A stretch of 64,000 nucleotides of DNA from Pseudofrankia saprophytica. Lineage in GTDB: Bacteria; Actinomycetota; Actinomycetes; Frankiales; Frankiaceae. The stretch lies in NCBI RefSeq assembly GCF_000235425.2, contig NZ_KI912266.1, positions 1,133,886-1,197,885 on the forward strand, in the 5' to 3' direction. The position numbers and the translations under genes were made by a program. Shown piece by piece: positions 4,087-64,000 of the stretch (the stretch's first letter is position 1; every line of letters starts with the position of its first letter). The notes beneath the pieces are model-generated. The model was not told the DNA's origin and made no database searches. It was given only the letters and a program-made list of their open reading frames with translations.

Positions 4087-4992
4087 ATGACCGTCACCAC
4101 CATCGCCGTCGTGTCGGACTCCTTCGGGCGGGACCTGAACGAGTGCATGGGCACGGTCGCCCGGCACATCGAGACCGCCAGGGCCCGCGGCGCCCAGCTG
4201 CTCGCGCTGCCCGAGGCGGCCCTCGGCGGCTATCTGCAGGCGCTCTCGGCGGACGACGACCCGGGGCCGGTCGGCGACGCTCCGTTACTCGACCCGGACG
4301 GGCCGCAGATCGCCCGGCTCGTCGAGCTGGCCGGCGACATGGTCGTCTGCGTCGGCTACTCCGAGCGAGCCGGCTACCGCCGCTACAACAGCGCGGTCTG
4401 CGTCGGCGGCGGCAAGGTGCTCGGCCGGCACCGCAAGGTGCACCTGCCGCTGGCCGAGGTGGAGTCCTACGACGCCGGCGACCGGTTCCGCGCCTTCGAC
4501 ACCCCGATCGGCCGGATCGGGATGCTGGTCTGCTACGACAAGGCGTTTCCCGAGTCGGCGCGCAGCCTCGCGATCGCCGGCGCGGAGATCATCGTGTGCC
4601 TGTCGGCCTGGCCGATGTCGCGCACGCACCCGTCCGACGACCTTGCCCTGGACCGCTGGCGGTACCGCTTCGACGTCTACGACGAGGTGCGCGCGCTGGA
4701 GAACCAGGTCGTCTGGGTGTCGGCGAACCAGGTCGGGCAGTTCGGATCGTTGACCTTCGTCGGAAACTCCAAGATCGTGCATGCGAACGGTACCGTGCTC
4801 GCGGCGACCGGCGACGACCCAGGGATGGCCATGGCTCACGTGGACGTCGCGGAAGCGCTGCACGTCGCCCGCCGAAGCATGAACCACCTGCGCGACCGAC
4901 GCCCCGACGCCTACGACACGCAGTGCCTGCTCGCCGGCGAACCGGTGCTGCGCCAGCCTTACGCGCGCGTCCCGCCGGCCCGCGCCGGCTGA
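4087..4992 (+). CDS. nitC: Nit6803/NitC-family nitrilase
   Basis: A 301-residue carbon-nitrogen hydrolase with the full nitrilase triad: E43 (LPEAAL), K117 (GRHRKVHLP) and C149 (LVCYDKAFPE). Enzymes of this family hydrolyse nitriles to acid plus ammonia. Nit1C nitrilases in Pseudomonas have been implicated in cyanide assimilation, probably through cyanohydrins formed from cyanide and keto acids. Length is normal and no signal peptide is seen, so it is cytoplasmic. A GGGG-containing ribosome site sits about 9 nt before the ATG, 25 nt after the upstream stop, consistent with one operon. Actual substrate in this organism is inferred. Confidence 0.88.
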   Translation: MTVTTIAVVSDSFGRDLNECMGTVARHIETARARGAQLLALPEAALGGYLQALSADDDPGPVGDAPLLDPDGPQIARLVELAGDMVVCVGYSERAGYRRYNSAVCVGGGKVLGRHRKVHLPLAEVESYDAGDRFRAFDTPIGRIGMLVCYDKAFPESARSLAIAGAEIIVCLSAWPMSRTHPSDDLALDRWRYRFDVYDEVRALENQVVWVSANQVGQFGSLTFVGNSKIVHANGTVLAATGDDPGMAMAHVDVAEALHVARRSMNHLRDRRPDAYDTQCLLAGEPVLRQPYARVPPARAG

Positions 4993-10252: not shown

Positions 10253-11659
10253 TCAGATCGCTGTTCGGTCGTCCAGCCGCCGTCCGGCGGCGATGCCGCG
10301 GGCCGTGGCATCGACCGAGAACGACGCGACCAGCGCGCCGTCCTCGGTGTACACCCGGCACTCCGAGTGAGTCATGCCGTCACCGGCGAACGTCGAGTGG
10401 TGGTGGTACCGCAGCCACCGGTCCGCCCGGATGTCGGCGTGCAGCGAGAGGGAGATCGCGTTGATGCCCATGGAAAGGGTGCGATGGGCCTGGTCCTGGC
10501 CGATCCCGGCATGCGGGCGTAGCGCGGCGGCGATCGAGATGTGCCCGGTGAACTGCGCCAGCAGGCCGGCGTGCAGCGCCGGGTCTGCCGGCACGTCACG
10601 GAAGCGGAGCCAGGTGTCGATGACGGGCGGTCCGACCGGCGCGGCCGAGTCGTTGTTGTACGCCGCGTCGACCATGCGCAGGTCCCGCCCGGTGACGGAC
10701 ATGTCGTAGGGCTCGCTGTCGTACGGGCCGGCGGCGGGCGGCGGCGGCGCCTCATGCCGGACGACGTCGGGAGCGGTGACGTCGAGGAACAGGGTGCCGC
10801 TGGCCCGGCGCTTCCCGGCCTGGTTCACCTGTACGCCGAGGGTGCTGAACGTCCGTCCCGAGCTGAGCTCCTCGAGCTCGAACTCCAGCGGGAGGTTGGC
10901 ATCGGCGACCCGGTAGACGACCAGATGCGCCGACACGACGCGCCGCCCGCCGGCGTGCCGCATCGCGGCGACCACCGCCTGGCCGAGGATCTGGCTGGCC
11001 TCGACGACGGCACGCCCGGGGTTAGGCCGAATGACGCTGACATAGCGGCCTTCGCCGGCGGCCCGTAGGTCCATGATGTCGATCAGGTCGGCGGCATCAC
11101 CCCAGGTGGGGAACCGCTTGATGGTGGCGTCGCGGGGGTCCTCGCCGGCCACAGTGTCGACCAGTTCGACGCGCACCCGGTCATGGTCGAATGCCGCCAG
11201 ATCGGCCAGCCAGTCGAGGCCAGGAGCCGGCTCGGTGAAGGTCCATAGCGCGTCACGGCCGTCGACCAGGCCGTCGTCCGCGTCTTCCTCTGGAGCGTGC
11301 CATTCGGCGACGGGTGCCGCGGCCTTGCCGTCGAGGGTCCACAGCTCGCCGGAGCCCTTGACCGGGCAGGTCACTCGGCGGCCCTCGTCCTGCAACATGT
11401 CGAACCGCACATCCGCGCGCGGGAAGTACAGGGTCGGCGCCTGTCCCGGCTCGCGAACCCGCACCGCCGCCACCGATTCGGCGACCAGCCGGTCCCCCCA
11501 CCACGCCCTGGCCCGATAGGAACACGGAGAGTGTTCGACGACCGACTCCACACCTGGTTCGGCCGCGCTTGTGACTGGCTGCACGATCCGGAGCGTAATA
11601 CTCCATTGCGGTACACGCCCGTTCTCGCAAGACCGCGGAGCCACCGCACGCCCGAGCAC
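10253..11659 (-). CDS. DUF427 domain fused to acyl-CoA thioesterase-like (TesB) domain
   Basis: About 460 residues with two parts. Residues about 45-135 are DUF427-like (ARAWWGDRLVAES, TLYFPRADVRFDML, TCPVKGSGELW). Residues about 185-455 are a double-hotdog, TesB-like thioesterase (SAHLVVYRVADANLPLEFELEEL, then TWLRFRDVPADPALHAGLLAQFTGH). Acyl-CoA thioesterases release free fatty acid from CoA; the role of DUF427 is unknown. The start is uncertain: GTG at 11659 gives 468 aa, and GTG at 11614 would remove 15 unlike residues. It is monocistronic as seen, separated from the upstream lacI-type gene by about 220 bp holding an inverted-repeat element. Confidence 0.72.
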   Translation of the reverse strand: MLGRAVAPRSCENGRVPQWSITLRIVQPVTSAAEPGVESVVEHSPCSYRARAWWGDRLVAESVAAVRVREPGQAPTLYFPRADVRFDMLQDEGRRVTCPVKGSGELWTLDGKAAAPVAEWHAPEEDADDGLVDGRDALWTFTEPAPGLDWLADLAAFDHDRVRVELVDTVAGEDPRDATIKRFPTWGDAADLIDIMDLRAAGEGRYVSVIRPNPGRAVVEASQILGQAVVAAMRHAGGRRVVSAHLVVYRVADANLPLEFELEELSSGRTFSTLGVQVNQAGKRRASGTLFLDVTAPDVVRHEAPPPPAAGPYDSEPYDMSVTGRDLRMVDAAYNNDSAAPVGPPVIDTWLRFRDVPADPALHAGLLAQFTGHISIAAALRPHAGIGQDQAHRTLSMGINAISLSLHADIRADRWLRYHHHSTFAGDGMTHSECRVYTEDGALVASFSVDATARGIAAGRRLDDRTAI

Positions 11660-11761
11660 CCTCCGTAGTTATCTGCGTACGGCTGTACGGGCCGCTGAGA
11701 CCCGGAAAACACCCTCCCGATATGGAGGCAAGGGTCCGTCGCGCCAGCCGACGGGCGAACT

Positions 11762-11865
11762 GTGGCATCTAACAAAGCCAATAGACACACCCATCTGCCA
11801 CACTCCCGACCCCTGCGGCCGAAGTGTGGTGGCTCCGCGTGTCCATAGGCTTGGCCAGATGCCAC
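11762..11865. repeat. 104-bp inverted-repeat element (imperfect 27-bp arms)
   Basis: The arms at 11762-11788 and 11839-11865 are inverted copies matching at 22 of 27 positions (outer GTGGCATCT and inner GACAC/GTGTC blocks perfect). A nested CCACAC...GTGTGG pair lies inside. It sits 18 bp downstream of the LacI-type gene's stop and about 100 bp upstream of the thioesterase start, both on the minus strand. It could be a terminator for the sugar operon, a regulatory hairpin, or a MITE-like remnant. Confidence 0.55.
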
Positions 11866-55212: not shown

Positions 55213-56997
55213 TCAGTCCGCCGGTGCGGCTCGGACCGCCTGCCCGGCGGCAGGCGGTCCGAGCGGGCAGTTCCTCGGGTTCGTCGCGACGGGCGTCCCG
55301 TCCAGCGCGCAGTGCAGAAAATGCGGTTGGACGGCGTTGGCCGGCGCCGGCGGCGGCACGCCGGCGGCCGGCCCTCCTCGGGCGGGCCCGGCCGCCGGAG
55401 CCGGGACTGGCACCCGCGTCGGCACCCGGAATGCCGGGCGTGGCGGGTTGCGAATGCCGAGGGCCGCCAGCAGGCCGCCGGCGGCGCAGAGTGCGGCGGC
55501 CAGCCACATCGCGATACGGAAGCCGTGGTTGAAGGCGCCCGAGTCCAGATAGGCCCCGCCGCTCAGCCCTGCGGCCGCGGGCAGCACGGCGACGGCGAGG
55601 AGACCGGCGGTGCGGGCCACGTCGTTGTTCACCGCGGAGGCGACGCCGGCCTTGTCGGCGGGCGCCGCGCCGAGCGCCGTCGACGTCAGCGGCGCGACCG
55701 TCGTCGCCAGACCCAGGCCGAGTACGGCGACGGCCGGCAGCACGTCACGCAGGTAGCCGTCGCCATGGCCTGCCCGGGACAGCAGCGCGAGCCCCGCGGC
55801 GGCGAGCAGCGGCCCGGCACTCATCTGCAGCCGGGGACCGATCCGATCCGCCAGCGCGCCAGAGCGAGCTGACAGAGCCAGCATGATGATCGTGATGGGT
55901 AGCAGAGCGGTTCCCGCCTCGATCGGCGAGTACCCGCCGGCCTGCTGCAGCTCGATCGGCAGCAGGAACAACGCACCGCCGAGCGCCGCGTACATCACGA
56001 AGGTGACCAGGTTCGCCGCCGTGAACTGCCGGGAGGCGAACAGCGTTGGCGGGAGCATCGGCTCGCGCTCCCGCTGCTCGGCGACGATGAACGCACCCAG
56101 CAGCGCCACGCCAGCCGCCAGTGACCCGGTCACGACCGGCGAGGTCCAGCCACGGCCCGGCCCTTCGATCAGCCCGTAGGACAGCCCGACCAGGCCGAGC
56201 GTCACCAGCGCCGCGCCGGTCACGTCGATCCGGCGCGGCGCGGCCGGGTCGGTCGACTCCGGTACGTGCCGCGCCGCGACCGCCAGCACCGCCACGGCGA
56301 GCGGCAGGTTGATGAAGAAGATCAGCCGCCAGGAAACCGCGCCAACCAGCCAGCCGCCGAGAAACGGCCCGACGGCCGTCGTCACCCCCGACAGGCCAGA
56401 CCAGGCACCGATCGCCCGCGAGCGATCGTCCGCGGCGAAGGACGCCTGCAGGATCGCGAGGCTGCCCGGCGTCAGCAGCGCCCCACCGACCCCCTGCAGC
56501 GCCCGCGCGCCGACCAGCACGGAGGAGTTCGGCGCGAGCCCGCAGAGCAGGGACGCGAGCGCGAACCACCCGACGCCGAGCATGAACACCCGACGCCGGC
56601 CATACCGGTCACCGAGCGAACCGCCGAGCAGCAGCAGCCCGGCCAACGCGAGCGTGTACGCGGTGACGACCCACTGCAGCGAGGCAAGGCCGGTTCCGAA
56701 GTCGCGCCCGATGGACGGCAGCGCGACTCCGACCGCGGTCGCGTCGATCGACGCCAGGCCCGAGCCGAGGACGGTCGCGAGCAGCACCCATCGCCCACGC
56801 GCGGACCCCACCACCAGGTCGCCCGCCCGCCAGGCCTCGGCCTGCGGCTCCACGAGGGCCGGCCCGTCGGCCGGGTCCGGACCGTCGGCCGGGTCCGGAC
56901 CGTCGGCCGGGTCCGGACCGTCGGCCGGGTCCGGACCGTCGGCCGGGTCCGGACCGCCCCGCCCGGCAGGGGGCCACGGCGGTACACCGGTCGGCAT
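55213..56997 (-). CDS. MFS transporter, DHA2 family, with repeat N-terminus and hairpin-encoded C-terminus
   Basis: A 594-residue, 14-helix efflux pump (SIDATAVGVALPSIGRDFG, GGSLGDRYGRRRVF, SGVTTAVGPFLGGWLVG). Ahead of it are five perfect GPDPAD-type hexapeptide repeats encoded by 18-bp units at 56864-56953; a start after them is possible. The C-terminal about 60 residues are Pro/Ala-rich with a CALDG...NCPLG cysteine pair and are encoded over a perfect 16-bp hairpin. It converges on the glycosyltransferase gene. The substrate is unknown. Confidence 0.85.
   Translation of the reverse strand: MPTGVPPWPPAGRGGPDPADGPDPADGPDPADGPDPADGPDPADGPALVEPQAEAWRAGDLVVGSARGRWVLLATVLGSGLASIDATAVGVALPSIGRDFGTGLASLQWVVTAYTLALAGLLLLGGSLGDRYGRRRVFMLGVGWFALASLLCGLAPNSSVLVGARALQGVGGALLTPGSLAILQASFAADDRSRAIGAWSGLSGVTTAVGPFLGGWLVGAVSWRLIFFINLPLAVAVLAVAARHVPESTDPAAPRRIDVTGAALVTLGLVGLSYGLIEGPGRGWTSPVVTGSLAAGVALLGAFIVAEQREREPMLPPTLFASRQFTAANLVTFVMYAALGGALFLLPIELQQAGGYSPIEAGTALLPITIIMLALSARSGALADRIGPRLQMSAGPLLAAAGLALLSRAGHGDGYLRDVLPAVAVLGLGLATTVAPLTSTALGAAPADKAGVASAVNNDVARTAGLLAVAVLPAAAGLSGGAYLDSGAFNHGFRIAMWLAAALCAAGGLLAALGIRNPPRPAFRVPTRVPVPAPAAGPARGGPAAGVPPPAPANAVQPHFLHCALDGTPVATNPRNCPLGPPAAGQAVRAAPAD
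55229..55264. terminator. Perfect 16-bp hairpin inside MFS coding end, bidirectional terminator
   Basis: The arms 55229-55244 and 55249-55264 are exact complements with a 4-nt CGGC loop. It sits 32 bp beyond the glycosyltransferase stop and inside the last codons of the convergent MFS gene, so one hairpin can end both messages. Confidence 0.7.
56864..56953. repeat. Five 18-bp tandem repeats in MFS N-terminus
   Basis: Five head-to-tail perfect copies of CCGTCGGCCGGGTCCGGA encode repeated Gly-Pro-Asp-Pro-Ala-Asp on the minus strand. The copy number is likely variable. Confidence 0.92.
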
Positions 56998-57060
56998 AGC
57001 CGGACCCTACGCCGCCGGCCGGCCCGGTCACCCGGACCAGGCCGCCGGGCAGCCAGACCG

Positions 57061-57116
57061 CCGGGCAGCCGGGCAGCCGGGCAGCCGGGCAGCCGGGCAG
57101 CCGGGCAGCCGGGCAG
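57061..57116. repeat. Seven tandem CCGGGCAG octamers
   Basis: Seven perfect copies lie in the gap between the MFS start and the small membrane-protein gene. The same unit occurs three times at 9210-9233. Confidence 0.92.
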
Positions 57117-57119
57117 TAC

Positions 57120-57296
57120 CTACCGCAGCGCCTCGCGGTCGTCGTCCTGGTCCTGGAAGGCGCGGACCGACCAGCTGACACGGGTGTCGGCCACGTCGCG
57201 GCGTTCTTCCAGCACTCGCAGCAGAACCAGGAGGAAGAGGGTGCCCAGCGCCAGTAGCAGCGCCAGGATGAGTGTCACTAGATAGAAGTTCGTCAC
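57120..57296 (-). CDS. Small single-helix membrane protein (58 aa)
   Basis: A GTG-started 58-residue protein with GGAGG nine bases upstream. One long hydrophobic helix (FYLVTLILALLLALGTLFLLVLLRVL) is followed by a charged cytoplasmic tail (EERRDVADTRVSWSVRAFQDQDDDREALR). No family is recognised. It lies 91 bp downstream of the adenylosuccinate-synthetase-like gene on the same strand and may be the last member of that operon. Confidence 0.6.
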   Translation of the reverse strand: MTNFYLVTLILALLLALGTLFLLVLLRVLEERRDVADTRVSWSVRAFQDQDDDREALR

Positions 57297-57387: not shown

Positions 57388-58803
57388 CTAGTGCTTGTCG
57401 CCGCTGCGCGGCCCATAGGAGCGGACGGATACCGGTGCGCCACAAACCTCGGCGACCAGGTCCGGCCACTCGTCCGGGCCCGGCGACGCCTCGTCGAGGA
57501 CCGGCAGGGCCCGCAGCAACTGGCGGGTGAGCGCGGCCGACCGCTCCAGGTCACCGGCCGGCCCCGGCGTCAGCCGGTCGATCCGCCGCACCGCCGCGTC
57601 CGGGCGCGGCCCGCTCGGCGCGTCCCGCGTCCGGGCGCCCGCCGGGCTGTCGACAAGGTCCATGTCATCAGGCTGCTGGACCGGCCCCGCCGTGATGTCG
57701 CCGCAGTCGGAGAAGCCGCCGCTCCCAGGTGTCGCGTCCGCGACGTCGTAGGCCCGGCACACCCCGAGCGGGTGGGCGGCGGGGGCGTCGAGGTGGGTGA
57801 GCGCGACCGCGTCCACCCCGCCCGCGACCTCGACGGCATACCGATGGGCGACCGCGTCGAAGTGCCCGACCCGGAAGGCCCCCTGCCAGCGGCCGACGCC
57901 GTTGTGCCGGTCGGGCAGTGCCGCGGTCAGCGCGGCGTCCTCGCTCACCAGCGGGCCGGCGCCGTGCCGGGTGGTGAAGGTCCGCAGCACCCCGAGGCGG
58001 GTGACGTCGCCGCCGTCCACCCCGGCGTCCCGCAACAGCTTCTCCGCGTTCGCGAACGTCGTCGTCGACCAGGTCGTGTACGGGTGGAAGCCGTGCCACT
58101 CATCGAGCAGCACGCCCTGCGCCCCCTCGAAGACGACCGGGCCGGCGCGCAGCAGCTCGACGACGTGCCGGTCATCGACGAACCGGACCGTCCGGGCGAA
58201 CTCGCCGAACACCTCGACGCAGTCCTCGACCGGCGGCGCCGGCAGCGGCCCGAGCTCCGACTCCAGCAGCGCCCGCAGCTCGCCGAGCAGCCGGCGCAGC
58301 CGGGCGGGGTGCGCGCAGTCGCCCACCCGCGGCGCGTCGTCGGGGTAGGCGAGGGCGTAGGCGGCCGTCTCCCCGATCCCCATTCCACACGAACCGTGCC
58401 GCCCGGTGCCGCGGGCGAGCTCCCTGGCCCGGTTCGCGGCCGCGTGGTACGGCGTGGTCAGCAGCGCGTCCCGGTGAACGGTGAGCGCCCCGAACGGGTC
58501 GGGCACGCCGAGGGCGGCGAGATGGTCCGCCTCCGCCGCCAGCGCCAGCGGGTCGACGAGCATGTACCGCGACAGGTGGGTCGGCACGCCGGCGAGCGTG
58601 CCGGCGCCGAACTGCGCGAAGGTGTGCTGGCGGTCGTCGTCGGTGACGACGTTGTGCGCCGCCTGCGCGCCGCCGTTGAAACGGACCACGGCGCTGGCCG
58701 GCCGGCCGGCAGCCGCGGCGGCCCGGCAGAGGTGGTCGACGACCGTCCCCTTGCCGGCGTCGCCGAAGCCGAGATCGACGACGATCACATGGTCGGGCCG
58801 CAT
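57388..58803 (-). CDS. Adenylosuccinate synthetase-like protein, divergent paralogue
   Basis: A 471-residue member of the adenylosuccinate synthetase (PurA) fold, about 40 residues longer than usual. The P-loop reads VDLGFGDAGKGT (D15 kept, the usual Glu replaced by Ala16), the active-site His is H50 (GGAQAAHN), and VFEGAQGVLLDEWHG and TTRHGAGP are well kept. The basic GRRRRTGWLD loop that binds IMP/GTP is replaced by GRWQGAFRVGHFD, and GTTGRGIGP by GSCGMGIGE. It should join an acidic group to a nucleotide, but perhaps with another substrate. GGAAGGAAGGAG precedes the ATG. Its operon contains VWA, kinase-like and Nudix genes, not purine genes. Confidence 0.82.
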   Translation of the reverse strand: MRPDHVIVVDLGFGDAGKGTVVDHLCRAAAAAGRPASAVVRFNGGAQAAHNVVTDDDRQHTFAQFGAGTLAGVPTHLSRYMLVDPLALAAEADHLAALGVPDPFGALTVHRDALLTTPYHAAANRARELARGTGRHGSCGMGIGETAAYALAYPDDAPRVGDCAHPARLRRLLGELRALLESELGPLPAPPVEDCVEVFGEFARTVRFVDDRHVVELLRAGPVVFEGAQGVLLDEWHGFHPYTTWSTTTFANAEKLLRDAGVDGGDVTRLGVLRTFTTRHGAGPLVSEDAALTAALPDRHNGVGRWQGAFRVGHFDAVAHRYAVEVAGGVDAVALTHLDAPAAHPLGVCRAYDVADATPGSGGFSDCGDITAGPVQQPDDMDLVDSPAGARTRDAPSGPRPDAAVRRIDRLTPGPAGDLERSAALTRQLLRALPVLDEASPGPDEWPDLVAEVCGAPVSVRSYGPRSGDKH

Positions 58804-58855
58804 CTCGGCTCCTTCCTTCCTTGACTCGGCGAAAAGACGGAAGACGGAAAGACGG

Positions 58856-59818
58856 TCAGAGACGGGCGATGCCGCCGTCAGGGTTGGCCAGGGGCCGGGC
58901 GCCGCCGGGCCGGATCCGGGACAGCGCCTTGCCGACAGGGGCGACGGCGGCGTCCGCGCCCAGGTCACGCAGGTCGTCGAGGCCCTCGTCGAGGTCGATC
59001 GAGTCCTCGAGGATGCCGATCGTGAGCGCGATCGTCTCGCAGGCCAGGCCAAGGTCGTCCAGCTCGATCACCCTCTCGCCGAGCAGCGCCCGCCAGGTGT
59101 CGAGCACCGCGCTCTCCCGCGCGTGCGCGGCGCCGGCCGGGATGATGAAGAAGACGTGGTACATCCGCTGGAGCTCCGTGAGGATCTCCGTGGTGGGGAT
59201 GCGCCCGCCCAGCCGGTCGCCGATCACGTCGCGGACCTGGCCGGCGTCGACCGCCTTGTAAGGGTTCTCGTCGCCGATGATGAACAGGTAGCCCTTGCGG
59301 CCGCGCTTCTCGAAGCAGTCGATCGCGGTGTGCCGGGCCATGAAGTACATGGCGAGCTCGTACGACTCCTTGACCTGGCCGCCACCGCCGCCCTCCAGGA
59401 TGATGTTGCCGAGGTGCGCGTCCATCCTGTTGTCCGACTCGAACTGGCCGACCTGCAGCGGCACCCGGTCACAGGTGGCGTCGCCGATGGCGCCGAACAT
59501 GATCTGCGGGTGCTCGACGTAGCCCTTGCGCAGCAGCAGGCCGAACAGCGCCGGCAGCTTGCTCTGCAGCTCACGCGGCACCGAGCCCATCGAGCCGGTG
59601 ACGTCGAACAGCACCGAGATGGCGACCGAGGTCGGGTGCTCGTCCGAGTCGCGGCTCTCCCGCGCCGTCACGCCGCGCGGGTCGAGGTCCGCGTGGACCT
59701 TCATCGCCCGGCCGGCGTGGCGCATCCGGTCGCTGTAGTCGAAGGCGCTCCGGCCGCTGCTGCGCCGGAAGCTCGCGGCCGCGTCGTAGACGTTTGTCGA
59801 CCAGCTACCGCTACCCAT
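58856..59818 (-). CDS. VWA-domain protein
   Basis: A 320-residue cytoplasmic protein with a von Willebrand A domain. The metal-site motif is D72-V-T74-G-S76 (ISVLFDVTGSMG), the further Asp/Thr region is IGDATCD, and IIGDENPYKAVDAGQV follows. VWA proteins often act as metal-dependent scaffolds with partner ATPases or kinases. GGAGG lies six bases before the ATG. It is between the J-domain kinase-like gene (84-bp gap) and the PurA-like gene (52-bp gap), suggesting a complex or pathway with both. Confidence 0.85.
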   Translation of the reverse strand: MGSGSWSTNVYDAAASFRRSSGRSAFDYSDRMRHAGRAMKVHADLDPRGVTARESRDSDEHPTSVAISVLFDVTGSMGSVPRELQSKLPALFGLLLRKGYVEHPQIMFGAIGDATCDRVPLQVGQFESDNRMDAHLGNIILEGGGGGQVKESYELAMYFMARHTAIDCFEKRGRKGYLFIIGDENPYKAVDAGQVRDVIGDRLGGRIPTTEILTELQRMYHVFFIIPAGAAHARESAVLDTWRALLGERVIELDDLGLACETIALTIGILEDSIDLDEGLDDLRDLGADAAVAPVGKALSRIRPGGARPLANPDGGIARL

Positions 59819-59902
59819 GGTGATCCTCCAGGAGGAGAAGAAGGGATGATGACGTTGGTCGGGGCCGGACCTGGCCCCTGGGAGGGCGCCGCCGGCGCGC
59901 GG

Positions 59903-61348
59903 TCAGCGCGCCGGGCGCGGCATCGTGAACGGGCGGAACCGACGGGGGCCGTACAGGCGGCCCAGCAGGTCGTCGAGCTCGCCGAGCAGTTGCCAGGCGT
60001 CGTCCGGCCGCATGGACGGTGCTGGTAGCAGGCAGCCGCCGAGGAACCGGCGGATCGGCGCGGGCACACCGGCGCCGAGCCCGGCCGGGTCAGGGCTGCC
60101 CAGGAGGTAGGACACGCAGCGGGTGGCGAGGGCGAGGTCGGTCGCCGCCCCCGGCGGCTCGCGGCGCGCCACCTCCGGCGGGTACCAGTCGGCGTACGCC
60201 GCCACCAGCGCGGGGATCCGCCGACTCGGGTCGCCGCCACCGTCGCCGTCGTCGAGCCCGGACGCCCCGCGCCCCGGCGTCCGGGGCCATGACGCCCCGC
60301 GCCCCGGGCCACCGGTGAGCCCGGCGCCGCGGTACGGGCCGACGATCGCGTCCGGCGCCGGGTCCGGGACCGCGCTGTAGCACCAGTCGACGAGGACCAG
60401 GCCGTGCTGCTCCGGGTGGATCAGGACGTGGTCGGGAAGCACCGCCCCGTGCGCGACCCCGGCGCGGTGCGCGTAGCCGATCACGACGAGCAGCCGGCGC
60501 CACATCCAGACGGCGTCGCGCGGGTCCAACCCGCCCGGGTACGCGGCGCGCACCTGGGCCAGCGTCACGAAGCCGTCGAGCCTGCCCAGCACGTTCGCCC
60601 GGCGGCCCGCGCCGCCGGCCGCCGGATCGGCGAACCGGCCGGTGTCCACCAGCCGCGGCACGTAGGGAGCGAACTTCGGGTCACCCAGCCTGGCGATCCG
60701 GCGCAGCGCCGCCGCCTCCCGGGCGAGAAGATCGTCGTCGGCCACCGCGCGGGCGATCTTCACGACGTAGGGCGGATCGGCACCGTCGGCCGGTCCACCG
60801 GCGTCGTCGCCGTCGGCTGGCGTGGCCCGGGCCACCCGGTACAGGGTGGTGATGTCACCGTCCGCGTACCGCTCGCCGACGGTGTACGCGAGCCGGGAGC
60901 CGGCCGCGCCGGTGGCGCCGGCTGAGCGGGCCGAGCCGGTGCGAGCCTTCGCCGCCGGCGCGCGGCCGCGGCCGAAGACGACCGTGCCGGACCGGTCGCC
61001 CCGCCGCGCGCCCGACGTGCCGCCCGCGGCCAGCTGATGGGCCTCCCACAGCTCGGTGAGCCGGGTGAACGCCCTGGCCGCCTCGGTGCGACGGGCCATC
61101 GGAGCGACGTCCGGATGCGCGAGCCGGGCCATGGCCCGGTAGACGCGGCGGGCCGCGCGCAGCGCCGCCTCCGGCGAGCGGCCGGCGGTCGGCTCGGCGG
61201 GCCCGAACAGCTCCCGTTCCCCGAGGCCCTGGCGCAGCACGAGGTCGATCACCTCGTCGAGCGAGGCGGGCTGACGCGGACCGTCCTCGCCAGCGCCGCC
61301 GCGACTCGTCGCCGTCGGCGGGATGGTGGCCGAACCGGTGTGGGTCAT
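59903..61348 (-). CDS. J-domain and protein-kinase-like fusion (probable pseudokinase)
   Basis: A 481-residue protein. Residues about 55-105 resemble a DnaJ J-domain including its HPD motif (H78-P-D80, LAHPDVAP). Residues about 150-470 resemble a Ser/Thr kinase: lysine K197 (YVVKIAR), a possible helix-C glutamate E211, but the catalytic HRD is H300-G-A (AHGAVLPDHVLI) and DFG is D321-W-C. Loss of the catalytic Asp points to a pseudokinase. The ATG overlaps the Nudix stop (ATGA). A Gly/Arg-rich insert lies near 60230-60300. It may bind nucleotide and scaffold the VWA protein. Confidence 0.78.
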   Translation of the reverse strand: MTHTGSATIPPTATSRGGAGEDGPRQPASLDEVIDLVLRQGLGERELFGPAEPTAGRSPEAALRAARRVYRAMARLAHPDVAPMARRTEAARAFTRLTELWEAHQLAAGGTSGARRGDRSGTVVFGRGRAPAAKARTGSARSAGATGAAGSRLAYTVGERYADGDITTLYRVARATPADGDDAGGPADGADPPYVVKIARAVADDDLLAREAAALRRIARLGDPKFAPYVPRLVDTGRFADPAAGGAGRRANVLGRLDGFVTLAQVRAAYPGGLDPRDAVWMWRRLLVVIGYAHRAGVAHGAVLPDHVLIHPEQHGLVLVDWCYSAVPDPAPDAIVGPYRGAGLTGGPGRGASWPRTPGRGASGLDDGDGGGDPSRRIPALVAAYADWYPPEVARREPPGAATDLALATRCVSYLLGSPDPAGLGAGVPAPIRRFLGGCLLPAPSMRPDDAWQLLGELDDLLGRLYGPRRFRPFTMPRPAR

Positions 61349-62331
61349 CGTGGCTCCTCCTGCCCTGGACGCAGCAGCGCGGGGTGCAGCAGCCGGGCCG
61401 GGCCGGCGCGGTAGAGCCGTGCGCGCCGGCCGCCACGGGCGCCGCCACGCGCGGTGGTGGCACCGGTGTCCTCGACGAAGCCCGGCGCGGAGAGCACCTT
61501 GCGGTGGAAGTTGGGCGCGTGCAGCGGCTGCCCCCACACCGCCTCGTAGACCTCTCGCAGCTCGGTGATGGTGAACTCGGGCGCGACGAACGTGGTCGCC
61601 AGCGGCGTGTACTCGAGCTTGGAGCTGGCCCGGTCGAGCGCGTCGTCGAGGATCCGCGCGTGGTCGAACGCCATGTGGTCGCGGTCGACGCGGACAACCG
61701 GAACCCAGGCGGCCGTCTCGGCGTCGCCACCGGCGGTCGGGTTCGGCAGATCGGGAGCGAAGGCCAGGTAGGCGACCGAGATGACCCGCATCCTGGGATC
61801 CCGACCCGGTGCTCCATAGGTCGCCAGCTGTTCCAGGTACACCCGGGCGAGGCGACGGTCGACCGCTCGCTGGTCCGTGGACGCCGCGAGCCCGGTCTCC
61901 TCGGCGAGCTCGCGGACCGCGGCCTCCGACAGATCCTCGTCGCGCCGGGTACCGTCCGGCCCGATCGCCGGGCGGACGAACCCACCCGGCAGGGCCCACC
62001 GTCCCAGGTACGGCGGCTGGCCGCGACGGACCAGCAGCACGTGCAGCGTGGGCACCGCCTCGACGACCCGGATGGTCAGCGCGATGACGTCGACCGTGAC
62101 GGCGATCGGCTCGTAGCTCCGCGGGTCGTAGGAGGAGAGGAACGCCGCCTCCGCCGCGTCGTCGTCCGCGGCGAGGACGACCGCCTCGTCGCGGGCGTCT
62201 TCGACGAAAGGATCTTCGTCGAAGACGCCCGCGACGACCGACGGCACCGGCCCCCCCGACGGCACCGGTGCCGTCGGCGCCGGCGAAACGGCCGGCCGCG
62301 ATGGCCGCCTCCGCTCCGACCCAGGGCCCAC
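61345..62331 (-). CDS. Nudix-fold regulator (NrtR-like), first gene of the operon
   Basis: A 328-residue protein. After about 65 disordered residues comes a Nudix domain (VIALTIRVVE...LLVRRGQPPYLGRWALPGGFV) with the catalytic helix R140-E-L-A-E-E-T-G-L intact after a roughly 10-residue insertion. A C-terminal winged-helix-like region follows (FTITELREVYEAVWGQPLHAPNFHRKVL), as in NrtR regulators of NAD metabolism, which bind ADP-ribose through the Nudix domain. It could be an active pyrophosphatase, a regulator, or both. The GTG start has AGGAG upstream. Palindromes lie just upstream. Confidence 0.82.
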   Translation of the reverse strand: MGPGSERRRPSRPAVSPAPTAPVPSGGPVPSVVAGVFDEDPFVEDARDEAVVLAADDDAAEAAFLSSYDPRSYEPIAVTVDVIALTIRVVEAVPTLHVLLVRRGQPPYLGRWALPGGFVRPAIGPDGTRRDEDLSEAAVRELAEETGLAASTDQRAVDRRLARVYLEQLATYGAPGRDPRMRVISVAYLAFAPDLPNPTAGGDAETAAWVPVVRVDRDHMAFDHARILDDALDRASSKLEYTPLATTFVAPEFTITELREVYEAVWGQPLHAPNFHRKVLSAPGFVEDTGATTARGGARGGRRARLYRAGPARLLHPALLRPGQEEPR

Positions 62332-62362
62332 GATGGCTCTCCTAAGGATTGGACGGCGAGTT

Positions 62363-62379
62363 CTACTCGGACCGAGTAG
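62363..62379. promoter_or_regulatory. Palindrome CTACTCG-GAC-CGAGTAG upstream of the Nudix gene
   Basis: Perfect 7-bp arms around 3 bp, 31 bp upstream of the GTG start. Together with the next repeat it is a strong candidate operator for the Nudix/NrtR-like protein (autoregulation). Confidence 0.6.
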
Positions 62380-62394
62380 CTCTCAACAGGAGTA

Positions 62395-62426
62395 GTTCTC
62401 AACCCAAGAATTTCTGAGGTTGAGAA
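62395..62426. promoter_or_regulatory. Inverted repeat TTCTCAACC-N13-GGTTGAGAA
   Basis: Perfect 9-bp arms (62396-62404, 62418-62426) around 13 bp. A further CTCAAC occurs at 62382-62387. The location and symmetry suit a dimeric regulator and probably overlap the operon promoter. Confidence 0.6.
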
Positions 62427-62787: not shown

Positions 62788-64000
62788 CTAGACGACGGAC
62801 GCAGCCGACAGGCCGGCCCGCTCCATCGCGGACCGGAGGGTTCCCAACAGCAGTTGCACCTCGGTCATGACCTGTGCGCCGGGAGCGGCCACCCTGGGGA
62901 TCTGAGCGGGCGCCATCGCCAGCCCGAGGGCCTGGGTGGCATCGGGCAGTCCGGCGCCGGCCCGACCTGGCCCGAACTCGGGCAATGGCCGACAGCAGGC
63001 CATCAGAACGTCGAACAGCCGCTGCACCCGTTCCGCCGGGTTCACGAACGGTCGTCGGAAGTCCGCCCGATGTGCCAGGATCAGCCCGGCGAGCCCGGTG
63101 ACATGCGGCGCGGCCATTGAGGTGCCGTCCAGCGCCGCGTAGCCCCCGCCAGGGACCGACGATACGATCGCCACTCCTGGGGCGACCGCGTCGATCTCCG
63201 GGCCCACGCAGCTGAACCTCGCCGGGAAGTAACCATCCAGGGTCGGCTGGCCGATCACCGCCTCCGCATGGTTGCTGTCCGCTGGGAAGGTGTCGGCCTT
63301 GCCCAGGGCCGCCACCGTGAACACCGTCGGCAGCGAACCTGGGAACCGGACCGGCTGATCCGCGACGTTGCCAGCGGCCACGATGCACGCCACCCCGGCC
63401 TGCCGGGCTTCCTCGATCTTCCTGGAGACAAAGATCGATCCGGCGTCGGCACCGAGGCTGAGGTTCACGATGTCGATCTTCTGCTGAATGCAGTAGTCGA
63501 GCGCCTCGATGAGGTCGCTGAACCGCCCACCCGGGAAGATCTTGCAGACGTGGATCTCCGCACCCGGCACGATGCCGATGATGCCGCGCCCGTTGTCGGC
63601 TCCGGTGACGGTGCCCGCGCAGTGCGTGCCATGCCCGACCTCGTCGGTGTCCCAGTGCCTGCCAGCCCGGTCAACCAGGTCGAACCCAGCGGTGATCCGG
63701 CCTTTCAGGTCAGGGTGGTTGACGTCGACGCCCGAGTCGATGAGGGCGATCTTGACGCCGTCACCGCGGTAGGTCGGCGGGATACGGTCGATCCCCATGG
63801 CCCGCTGGCCCCAGGTGAACTGCTGCCTGCTCGGGAAGTCCGGCATCAGCTGGCTCAGCGGCTCCAGCGCGATGACGTTGTCCTCGCTGGCCGACAGGCG
63901 TGGGCGGTCGATCGAGCGCTCCCAGTAGTCCGACGCCGGTCGGACGTAGACGTTCTGGATGGTGCCCGGGGTGTCGGCGATCAGCGTCACCGAGACCCGA
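62788..64000 (-). CDS. Subtilisin-like serine peptidase (S8), N-terminus outside window
   Basis: At least 400 residues; the frame is open to the right edge, though a GTG at 63990 exists. Counting from it, the triad is D85 (ALIDSGVD), H120 (VGHGTHCAG) and S291 (DGTSMAAPH), with oxyanion N208 (AAGN). An N-terminal segment of about 65 residues (YVRPASDYWERSIDRPRLSASEDN...) precedes the catalytic domain and may be a propeptide; no signal peptide is visible within the window. The last 80 residues are Ala-rich helical. Its role and whether it is linked to the Nudix operon are unknown. Confidence 0.85.
   Translation of the reverse strand, partial: RVSVTLIADTPGTIQNVYVRPASDYWERSIDRPRLSASEDNVIALEPLSQLMPDFPSRQQFTWGQRAMGIDRIPPTYRGDGVKIALIDSGVDVNHPDLKGRITAGFDLVDRAGRHWDTDEVGHGTHCAGTVTGADNGRGIIGIVPGAEIHVCKIFPGGRFSDLIEALDYCIQQKIDIVNLSLGADAGSIFVSRKIEEARQAGVACIVAAGNVADQPVRFPGSLPTVFTVAALGKADTFPADSNHAEAVIGQPTLDGYFPARFSCVGPEIDAVAPGVAIVSSVPGGGYAALDGTSMAAPHVTGLAGLILAHRADFRRPFVNPAERVQRLFDVLMACCRPLPEFGPGRAGAGLPDATQALGLAMAPAQIPRVAAPGAQVMTEVQLLLGTLRSAMERAGLSAASVV

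Follow-up and report, generated by a model that had tools for sequence, protein, structure and literature searches.

We analyzed a window of 64,000 nucleotides from Pseudofrankia saprophytica (NZ_KI912266.1, positions 1,133,886 to 1,197,885; all coordinates below are relative to its start). Our subject is a group of four minus-strand genes within this window, encoding a Nudix regulator of the NrtR type, a kinase-like protein with a J-domain, a VWA protein, and a relative of adenylosuccinate synthetase (PurA), referred to here as the PurA-like protein (Table 1). An initial annotation of this DNA had described a compact operon, and the open reading frames (ORFs) were indeed found where it had placed them: the Nudix and kinase-like genes share a 4-nt ATGA overlap, the kinase-like and VWA genes are 84 bp apart, and the VWA and PurA-like genes are 52 bp apart. 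The ribosome sites that it reported correspond to purine runs, seen by eye, upstream of the kinase-like, VWA, and PurA-like starts. A consensus scan of the operon found no sigma-70-like promoter or terminator consensus. PHROGs, a phage family library, matched all four proteins (VWA, 2e-80; PurA-like, 1e-67; kinase-like, 3.2e-42; Nudix, 3.3e-19).

Table 1. Features of the operon and its surroundings in the window.
Feature	Position	Strand	Remarks
NrtR-type regulator	61345..62331	-	Nudix domain with intact RE..EE.G helix, C-terminal winged helix; Pfam
J-domain pseudokinase	59903..61348	-	HPD at residues 78-80; HRD Asp replaced by Ala302; PHROG 3043, 3.2e-42
VWA protein	58856..59818	-	MIDAS residues D72, T74, S76; conserved MG N terminus; PHROG 2971, 2e-80
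PurA-like ligase (putative), aspartate loop rewritten	57388..58803	-	Pfam Adenylsucc_synt, 4.4e-55
Palindromic operator TTCTCAnnnTGAGAnnnTCTCAnnnTGAGAA	62396..62426	.	3 mismatches in the window copy
Extra half-sites, operator extended toward the Nudix start	62358..62395	.	Direct and inverted repeats; 8-bp phasing by eye
Possible fifth gene, 58-aa membrane-type protein	57120..57296	-	91 bp past the PurA-like stop

Conservation of the gene set

A search with an alignment of the VWA protein (A1) returned at least 570 relatives in genome contigs, with one genome per species, and 322 in viral contigs. All locus counts below refer to the best-scoring 80 of the bacterial and the best 80 of the viral relatives, and gene presence was scored by profile searches of all ORFs in each locus. 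The proposal that the four genes belong together stood up to this neighborhood analysis, as the PurA-like gene lay 3' of the VWA gene, on the same strand, in all 160 loci (80/80 bacterial and 80/80 viral). The distance between the two did not exceed 300 bp in any of the 80 bacterial loci, where the median corresponds to an ATGA-type overlap, and stayed within this limit in 56/80 viral loci; it measured 301 to 1000 bp in 12 further viral loci and 1055 to 2749 bp in another 12. The pseudokinase was present in 74/80 bacterial and 62/80 viral loci and the Nudix regulator in 74/80 and 2/80, respectively, with the order Nudix, kinase, VWA, and PurA-like on one strand in 70 of the bacterial loci. A reciprocal search with an alignment of the PurA-like protein (A4) found the VWA gene in 77 of 80 viral loci; in the three others (L247, L251, and L275), less than 900 bp lay between the contig end and the PurA-like gene. 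Within the fetched stretches, no further neighbor recurred in over 13/80 of the bacterial or 16/80 of the viral loci, and thus the four genes appear to make up a cassette of their own. We regard it as almost certain that this cassette is functionally a real unit.

The set is patchily distributed. It was present in 14 of 58 relatives and was found in 2 of 396 Actinomycetota, a figure that is possibly low because five candidates were scored per genome. At the edge of the family, a Methylorubrum locus (L304) retains the VWA and PurA-like genes, and a Rhizobium locus (L306) retains all four. On plasmids of Tsukamurella and Rhodococcus, the kinase-like, VWA, and PurA-like genes are followed by the Nudix gene, and on those of Agrobacterium and Acetobacter, a divergent Nudix gene lies upstream of the other three. 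A Rhodovulum plasmid locus (L305) carries an IS3 transposase gene upstream.

In a phage collection, 208 records matched the VWA protein, 210 the PurA-like protein (a few of which may be PurZ), and 191 the kinase; for each of the three, 190 of the records were from phages of Mycobacterium or Mycolicibacterium. In the Mycobacterium phage Bread (Bixzunavirus), the kinase-like, VWA, and PurA-like genes adjoin in that order. The VWA and PurA-like genes also adjoin in one Vibrio and one Rhizobium phage, without a match to the kinase profile. Among the viral loci, seven (L103, L155, L168, L230, L235, L236, and L246) have about 1.7 to 2.8 kb from the VWA to the PurA-like gene, and in two (L099 and L103) the kinase-like gene is located after the PurA-like gene. 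The viral neighborhoods comprised 746 called genes in 617 clusters, and a Pfam scan of 95 cluster representatives revealed no common theme among the 25 of 46 families listed. The representative of the largest cluster (16 genes) is an ATP-grasp R2K protein, and the gene for such a ligase (L148, 7705-8544) recurs near the module in one group of viral contigs. The R2K report (PMC4431377), as listed in a literature search, showed no occurrence of the term adenylosuccinate. Near the VWA and PurA-like genes of Vibrio phage Va1 (L006), two genes (4203-4859 and 10354-11862) encode proteins that appear NADAR-like and Ro60/TROVE-like by eye.

Active-site residues of the PurA-like protein

The model of the PurA-like protein, with a predicted local distance difference test (pLDDT) score of 89.8, matched PurA along the full chain. 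The best structural match was 1iwe_A (Z 43.0, 393 residues, 2.2 A); entries for E. coli PurA scored Z 36.0 to 41.8, and those for PurZ and PurZ0, Z 27.4 to 34.0. We aligned 168 PurA-like rows, which include both the window and L005 (the same gene) as well as some viral near-copies, and we use E. coli PurA numbering for residue positions. The residues D13 (167/168), K16 (167/168), H41 (167/168), Q224 (168/168), T239 (166/168), and D333 (166/168) were kept. In PurA, D13, H41, and Q224 are catalytic, as is K16 of the P-loop, and residues of this set activate a 6-oxopurine nucleotide by O6-phosphorylation.

Other positions were rewritten. Thr301 was replaced by Gln in 167 rows and by Ala in one, R303 was lost in 168/168 (a gap in the alignment), and no row had Arg at 305 (Phe in 130). 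V273 became His in 168/168 and N38 became Gln in 164/168; position 129 was Cys or Val in 164 rows and position 331 His or Cys in 163, and R143 was retained in 11. As a control, we used 30 ordinary actinobacterial PurAs, namely the source genome's own and the best-scoring among 59 genomes matching the Pfam family; N38, T129, R143, V273, T301, R303, R305, and K331 were present in 30/30. Thr301 and Arg305 are aspartate-binding residues of PurA, and some of the other changed residues probably hold the phosphate of inosine monophosphate (IMP). Compared with PurA of the E. coli type, the protein thus shares the whole-chain fold, the P-loop, Asp13, Lys16, His41, Gln224, and Asp333, but it differs at all eight control positions in all or nearly all rows, and its gene is linked to a VWA gene. 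By sequence comparison, it has kept the fold and the residues assigned to O6 activation and has lost those assigned to aspartate recognition, together with some putative IMP-phosphate residues.

According to a passage in a published report (PMC8342488), R303 of PurA makes contact both with free aspartate and with O2' of the IMP ribose, and the aspartate-contacting loop is retained in PurZ. In the title of PDB entry 1cg4, an E. coli R303L mutant structure, 6-phosphoryl-IMP is mentioned but an aspartate analogue is not; hadacidin is named in the titles of 1cg3 and 1cg1 (the R143L and K16Q mutants). The title of 1cg4 would fit a protein that still activates the nucleotide yet is unable to seat aspartate.

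The window protein reached 144.6 and 100.6 bits with the NCBIfam adenylosuccinate synthetase models, compared to cut-offs of 402 and 395.55, and 33.8 bits with the PurZ model, compared to a cut-off of 300. In a tree of 66 rows, the 34 PurA-like rows formed one clade (support 100/100, stem 2.46), and canonical PurA and the single PurZ row, that of S-2L with a branch of 6.75, fell outside it. S-2L PurZ has Val at 273 and no QG loop. A strict pattern of TRHG plus the QG loop misses 25/80 viral PurA-like loci, as the residues near QG vary. A canonical purA is present elsewhere in the source genome. Database records annotate the PurA-like protein as adenylosuccinate synthetase, and phage records as 2-aminooxy or PurA-like adenylosuccinate synthetase. 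In another Actinomycetota genome, we noted a divergent, split match to the PurA family (G108:C144:17262-18146).

The divergence of the PurA-like protein suspected at the outset is therefore borne out by the loss of T301, R303, and R305 in all 168 rows. Because these residues are invariant in the 30 ordinary enzymes, the protein is quite probably not an ordinary adenylosuccinate synthetase, and its product is probably not the usual AMP precursor. The idea of a purine-amino-acid conjugate of the ordinary kind is not supported, since the aspartate-binding residues are gone.

Partner proteins and operator

The kinase fold was recognized by profile search, with StkP as the best PDB match (E 2.7e-10). 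For the J-domain, the Pfam DnaJ model matched the window protein with an E of 0.026 and 15.1 bits, under the cut-off of 27.8; among 143 kinase-like proteins, the HPD motif was present as His in 134, Pro in 133, and Asp in 134. At the position of the catalytic Asp of HRD, the same proteins carried Ala (104), Gly (33), Ser (4), His (1), or Asp (1). With this Asp in a single protein of 143, the pseudokinase assignment of the initial annotation holds. The ATP-binding Lys is aligned in 106/143 and the DFG Asp in 92/143, and thus nucleotide binding may persist in many of these pseudokinases. In a Variovorax locus (L008, 4882-5871), two CxxC pairs, zinc-ribbon-like, replace the J-domain and recall the TerY-P kinases.

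The VWA protein had no match in Pfam, and a search for relatives in the PDB by sequence gave matches at chance level only (best E 0.16). Its AlphaFold2 model (pLDDT 90.5) matched integrin I-like domains (Z 16.0, 194 residues, 3.1 A). The residues of the metal ion-dependent adhesion site (MIDAS) are nearly invariant across 169 VWA rows, with D72 in 169, T74 in 168, and S76 in 168. A Gly is aligned at position 2 in 167/169, and 166/169 proteins start with Met-Gly as called, the exceptions being L068, L115, and L124. In the model, the N terminus is a coil, with a mean pLDDT of 73 over residues 1-10.

The regulator matched both NUDIX (1.3e-16) and NrtR_WHD (1.5e-13) in Pfam above cut-off; its score with the NCBIfam NrtR equivalog model NF050029 was 123, compared to a cut-off of 400. 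Of 74 bacterial relatives, 59 have an intact Nudix box (RE..EE.G helix), and the window copy has an insertion in the preceding loop, as judged by eye. The palindromes that had been described at the promoter lie at 62396-62426, within repeats reaching 62358, and represent an operator shared by the regions 5' of the Nudix gene in 74/74 cases (73 loci and the window), with best fits to TTCTCAnnnTGAGAnnnTCTCAnnnTGAGAA of 16 to 22 out of 22 positions. Among 740 windows drawn at random from these loci, 23 reached 16 or more, and each of the 23 overlapped the true site; the rest scored 8 to 14. A TAnGTT element, which resembles a -10 box by eye, abuts the operator.

With up to two mismatches allowed, the operator was found at exactly one place in each of 15 whole genomes (in 13 of them read on both strands, as expected of a palindrome), and the reversed pattern gave zero matches. 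All 14 places outside the source genome lie just upstream of the Nudix gene of this operon. A NAD regulon was considered and rejected, as every operator match in the 15 genomes, within the mismatch limits used, lay at this operon; the suggestion of NAD-responsive control is likewise not supported. One operator per genome indicates that the regulator is local rather than a general NAD regulator, and we infer that the Nudix protein is a local autorepressor. Its sensing of a nucleotide is plausible. It resembles the NrtR and AraR repressors in combining a Nudix domain with an NrtR winged helix and a palindromic operator. It differs from them in its Nudix box, intact in most relatives, and in an operator found solely at its own operon. 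As stated in part of one report (PMC4666351), the Nudix signature is impaired in NrtR and AraR, and one protein of the NrtR family senses arabinose.

Around the operon, the small membrane-type ORF had tblastn matches in 3/80 loci (L010, L011, and L012), all from the Frankia/Pseudofrankia lineage. Downstream of the operon lies an EmrB/QacA-type MFS efflux gene (55213-56997, minus strand) that has a GPDPAD repeat at its N terminus; between this gene and the operon is a short tandem repeat of the CAGCCGGG type (57040-57115). Upstream, and separate from the operon, is a subtilase gene (62788-63990, minus strand); its product resembles mycosins of type VII secretion systems (113.4 bits, compared to a cut-off of 278.75).

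Proposed function and alternatives

In the reading that we favor, with a probability of about 0.45, the four genes form an operon that stands on its own, is spread patchily, and encodes a GTP-driven ligase of purine nucleotides. The PurA-like ligase would use GTP to activate a purine nucleotide at O6 and would couple the activated nucleotide to some amine that is not free aspartate. The VWA partner may present this amine, or its carrier, through the metal site or the N-terminal tail, and the J-domain pseudokinase may recruit Hsp70 for assembly or recycling of the complex. The Nudix repressor would respond to the nucleotide signal or to the product, and copies with an intact box could also hydrolyze it. 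Most phage copies comprise the working genes but lack the repressor.

Several observations weigh against this ligase operon. No pseudokinase is found in 6/80 bacterial and 18/80 viral loci, with some of these loci truncated at a contig end, and the VWA and PurA-like genes are more than 1 kb apart in 12/80 viral loci. At the viral contig end L251, a kinase-like ORF, not a VWA gene, directly precedes the PurA-like gene, and the Rhodovulum plasmid L305 carries the Nudix, kinase-like, and VWA genes with the PurA-like gene absent from the fetched stretch. In the PurA-like alignment, the placement of gaps in the 301-305 loop is alignment-dependent, and one arginine (R306) is retained in 166/168 rows. 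Last, 15/74 bacterial relatives, as well as L002, L003, L004, and L009, have a damaged Nudix box; thus, hydrolysis is not essential.

Among other explanations, an anti-phage or inter-phage conflict system that follows the logic of the TerY-P triad (VWA, PP2C, and zinc-ribbon kinase) and depletes or alters purine nucleotides is doubtful. The patchy distribution, with plasmid and phage copies, would suit it, as would weak matches of the kinase to PD-T4-6 and MkoA in PADLOC, and a passage in the literature describes TerY-P-like modules acting in defense (PMC11090510). Like the triad, the operon combines a VWA protein with a kinase-fold protein in a mobile module, but the kinase is inactive by motif and bears a J-domain, and the PurA-like ligase stands in place of PP2C. 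Pfam assigned PP2C to none of the four operon genes, nor to the small ORF or the two neighboring genes scanned; no PP2C model was run against the relatives. The Nudix, VWA, and PurA-like proteins had no PADLOC match. We also scanned 137 of 152 flanking genes, called by codon-position GC, after dropping those above 700 aa and those past the size limit; PADLOC matched four families with one member each (E up to 1e-15), and Pfam returned mostly ordinary metabolic and transport families among the 25 of 114 listed. With PADLOC hits this sparse and phages carrying the module too, the phage-defense role once considered possible is unsupported.

It is unlikely that the PurA-like protein acts without a ligase product, as a GTP-dependent switch or as a scaffold client of a VWA/J-domain chaperone machine. 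The conservation of HPD (133 to 134 of 143) and of MIDAS D72 (169/169) would suit a chaperone-like module, and the altered IMP-site and aspartate residues also speak for it. However, the near-invariant D13, H41, K16, and Q224 suggest that chemistry is kept, and the invariant His273, which is new, and the QG loop point to a novel substrate site and not to decay.

The PurA-like protein is quite unlikely to be an ordinary or back-up adenylosuccinate synthetase that is made under special conditions and has chaperones as accessories. Such an enzyme would explain the PurA fold along the full chain, the retained catalytic pair, and the annotation in records, but not the complete loss of T301, R303, and R305, residues kept in 30/30 ordinary PurAs, nor the low scores with the synthetase models, and the same genome carries a canonical purA.

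A protein-modification version of the ligase reading is a long shot. Here the PurA-like protein would attach the GTP-activated purine nucleotide to a protein amine, with the N-terminal glycine of the VWA protein as the prime candidate, and the Nudix protein would remove or sense the attached nucleotide. This version draws on the near-universal Met-Gly start of the VWA protein, its coil tail, and a ligase without the residues that hold a free amino acid; L115, where the aligned Gly is internal, counts against an N-terminal amine.

Least probable is a PurZ-like enzyme for a modified phage DNA base, with the bacterial copies as remnants: its presence in about 200 sequenced phage records, the 2-aminooxy or PurA-like names used in phage records, and the standing of PurZ as the nearest functional variant speak for it, but the clade lies apart from the single, very long-branched S-2L PurZ, which has Val273 and lacks the QG loop, the PurZ model score is far under its cut-off, and the operons in bacteria are intact and share a conserved operator, unlike remnants. 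PurZ and PurZ0, which serve phage 2-aminoadenine synthesis, are likewise phage-carried ligases of the PurA fold, but they fall outside the PurA-like clade and differ in the aspartate-contacting loop that PurZ retains (the same passage of PMC8342488). No Z-cluster partner (MazZ or DatZ) was seen among the conserved bacterial neighbors, with no search aimed at either.

We return to the favored reading of a GTP-driven ligase operon and to its novelty. The individual pieces are already annotated in PHROGs and in phage records. We found no account of the four-gene set in the openly licensed PubMed Central literature, most subscription papers not being searchable, which agrees with the initial statement that no characterized system is known to have this composition; within the literature searched, the set appears undescribed. 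Other systems with a Nudix regulator and a VWA protein center on ADP-ribosylglycohydrolases, and the word adenylosuccinate is absent from the portion of that report available to us (PMC9503650).

The cassette occurs on a considerable scale, with over 500 loci in the one-genome-per-species collection (at least 570 candidate stretches, 80 of which were examined) and about 200 phage records. If the PurA-like protein is not an adenylosuccinate synthetase, the current annotations are wrong. Direct handles on function are offered by the VWA protein linked to the ligase and by a Nudix repressor specific to the operon, and because phages of M. smegmatis carry the set, this function is testable in a standard laboratory phage-host pair. 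If they are indeed not adenylosuccinate synthetases, the PurA-like proteins would also constitute a third functional branch within the PurA fold, in addition to those of PurA and PurZ.

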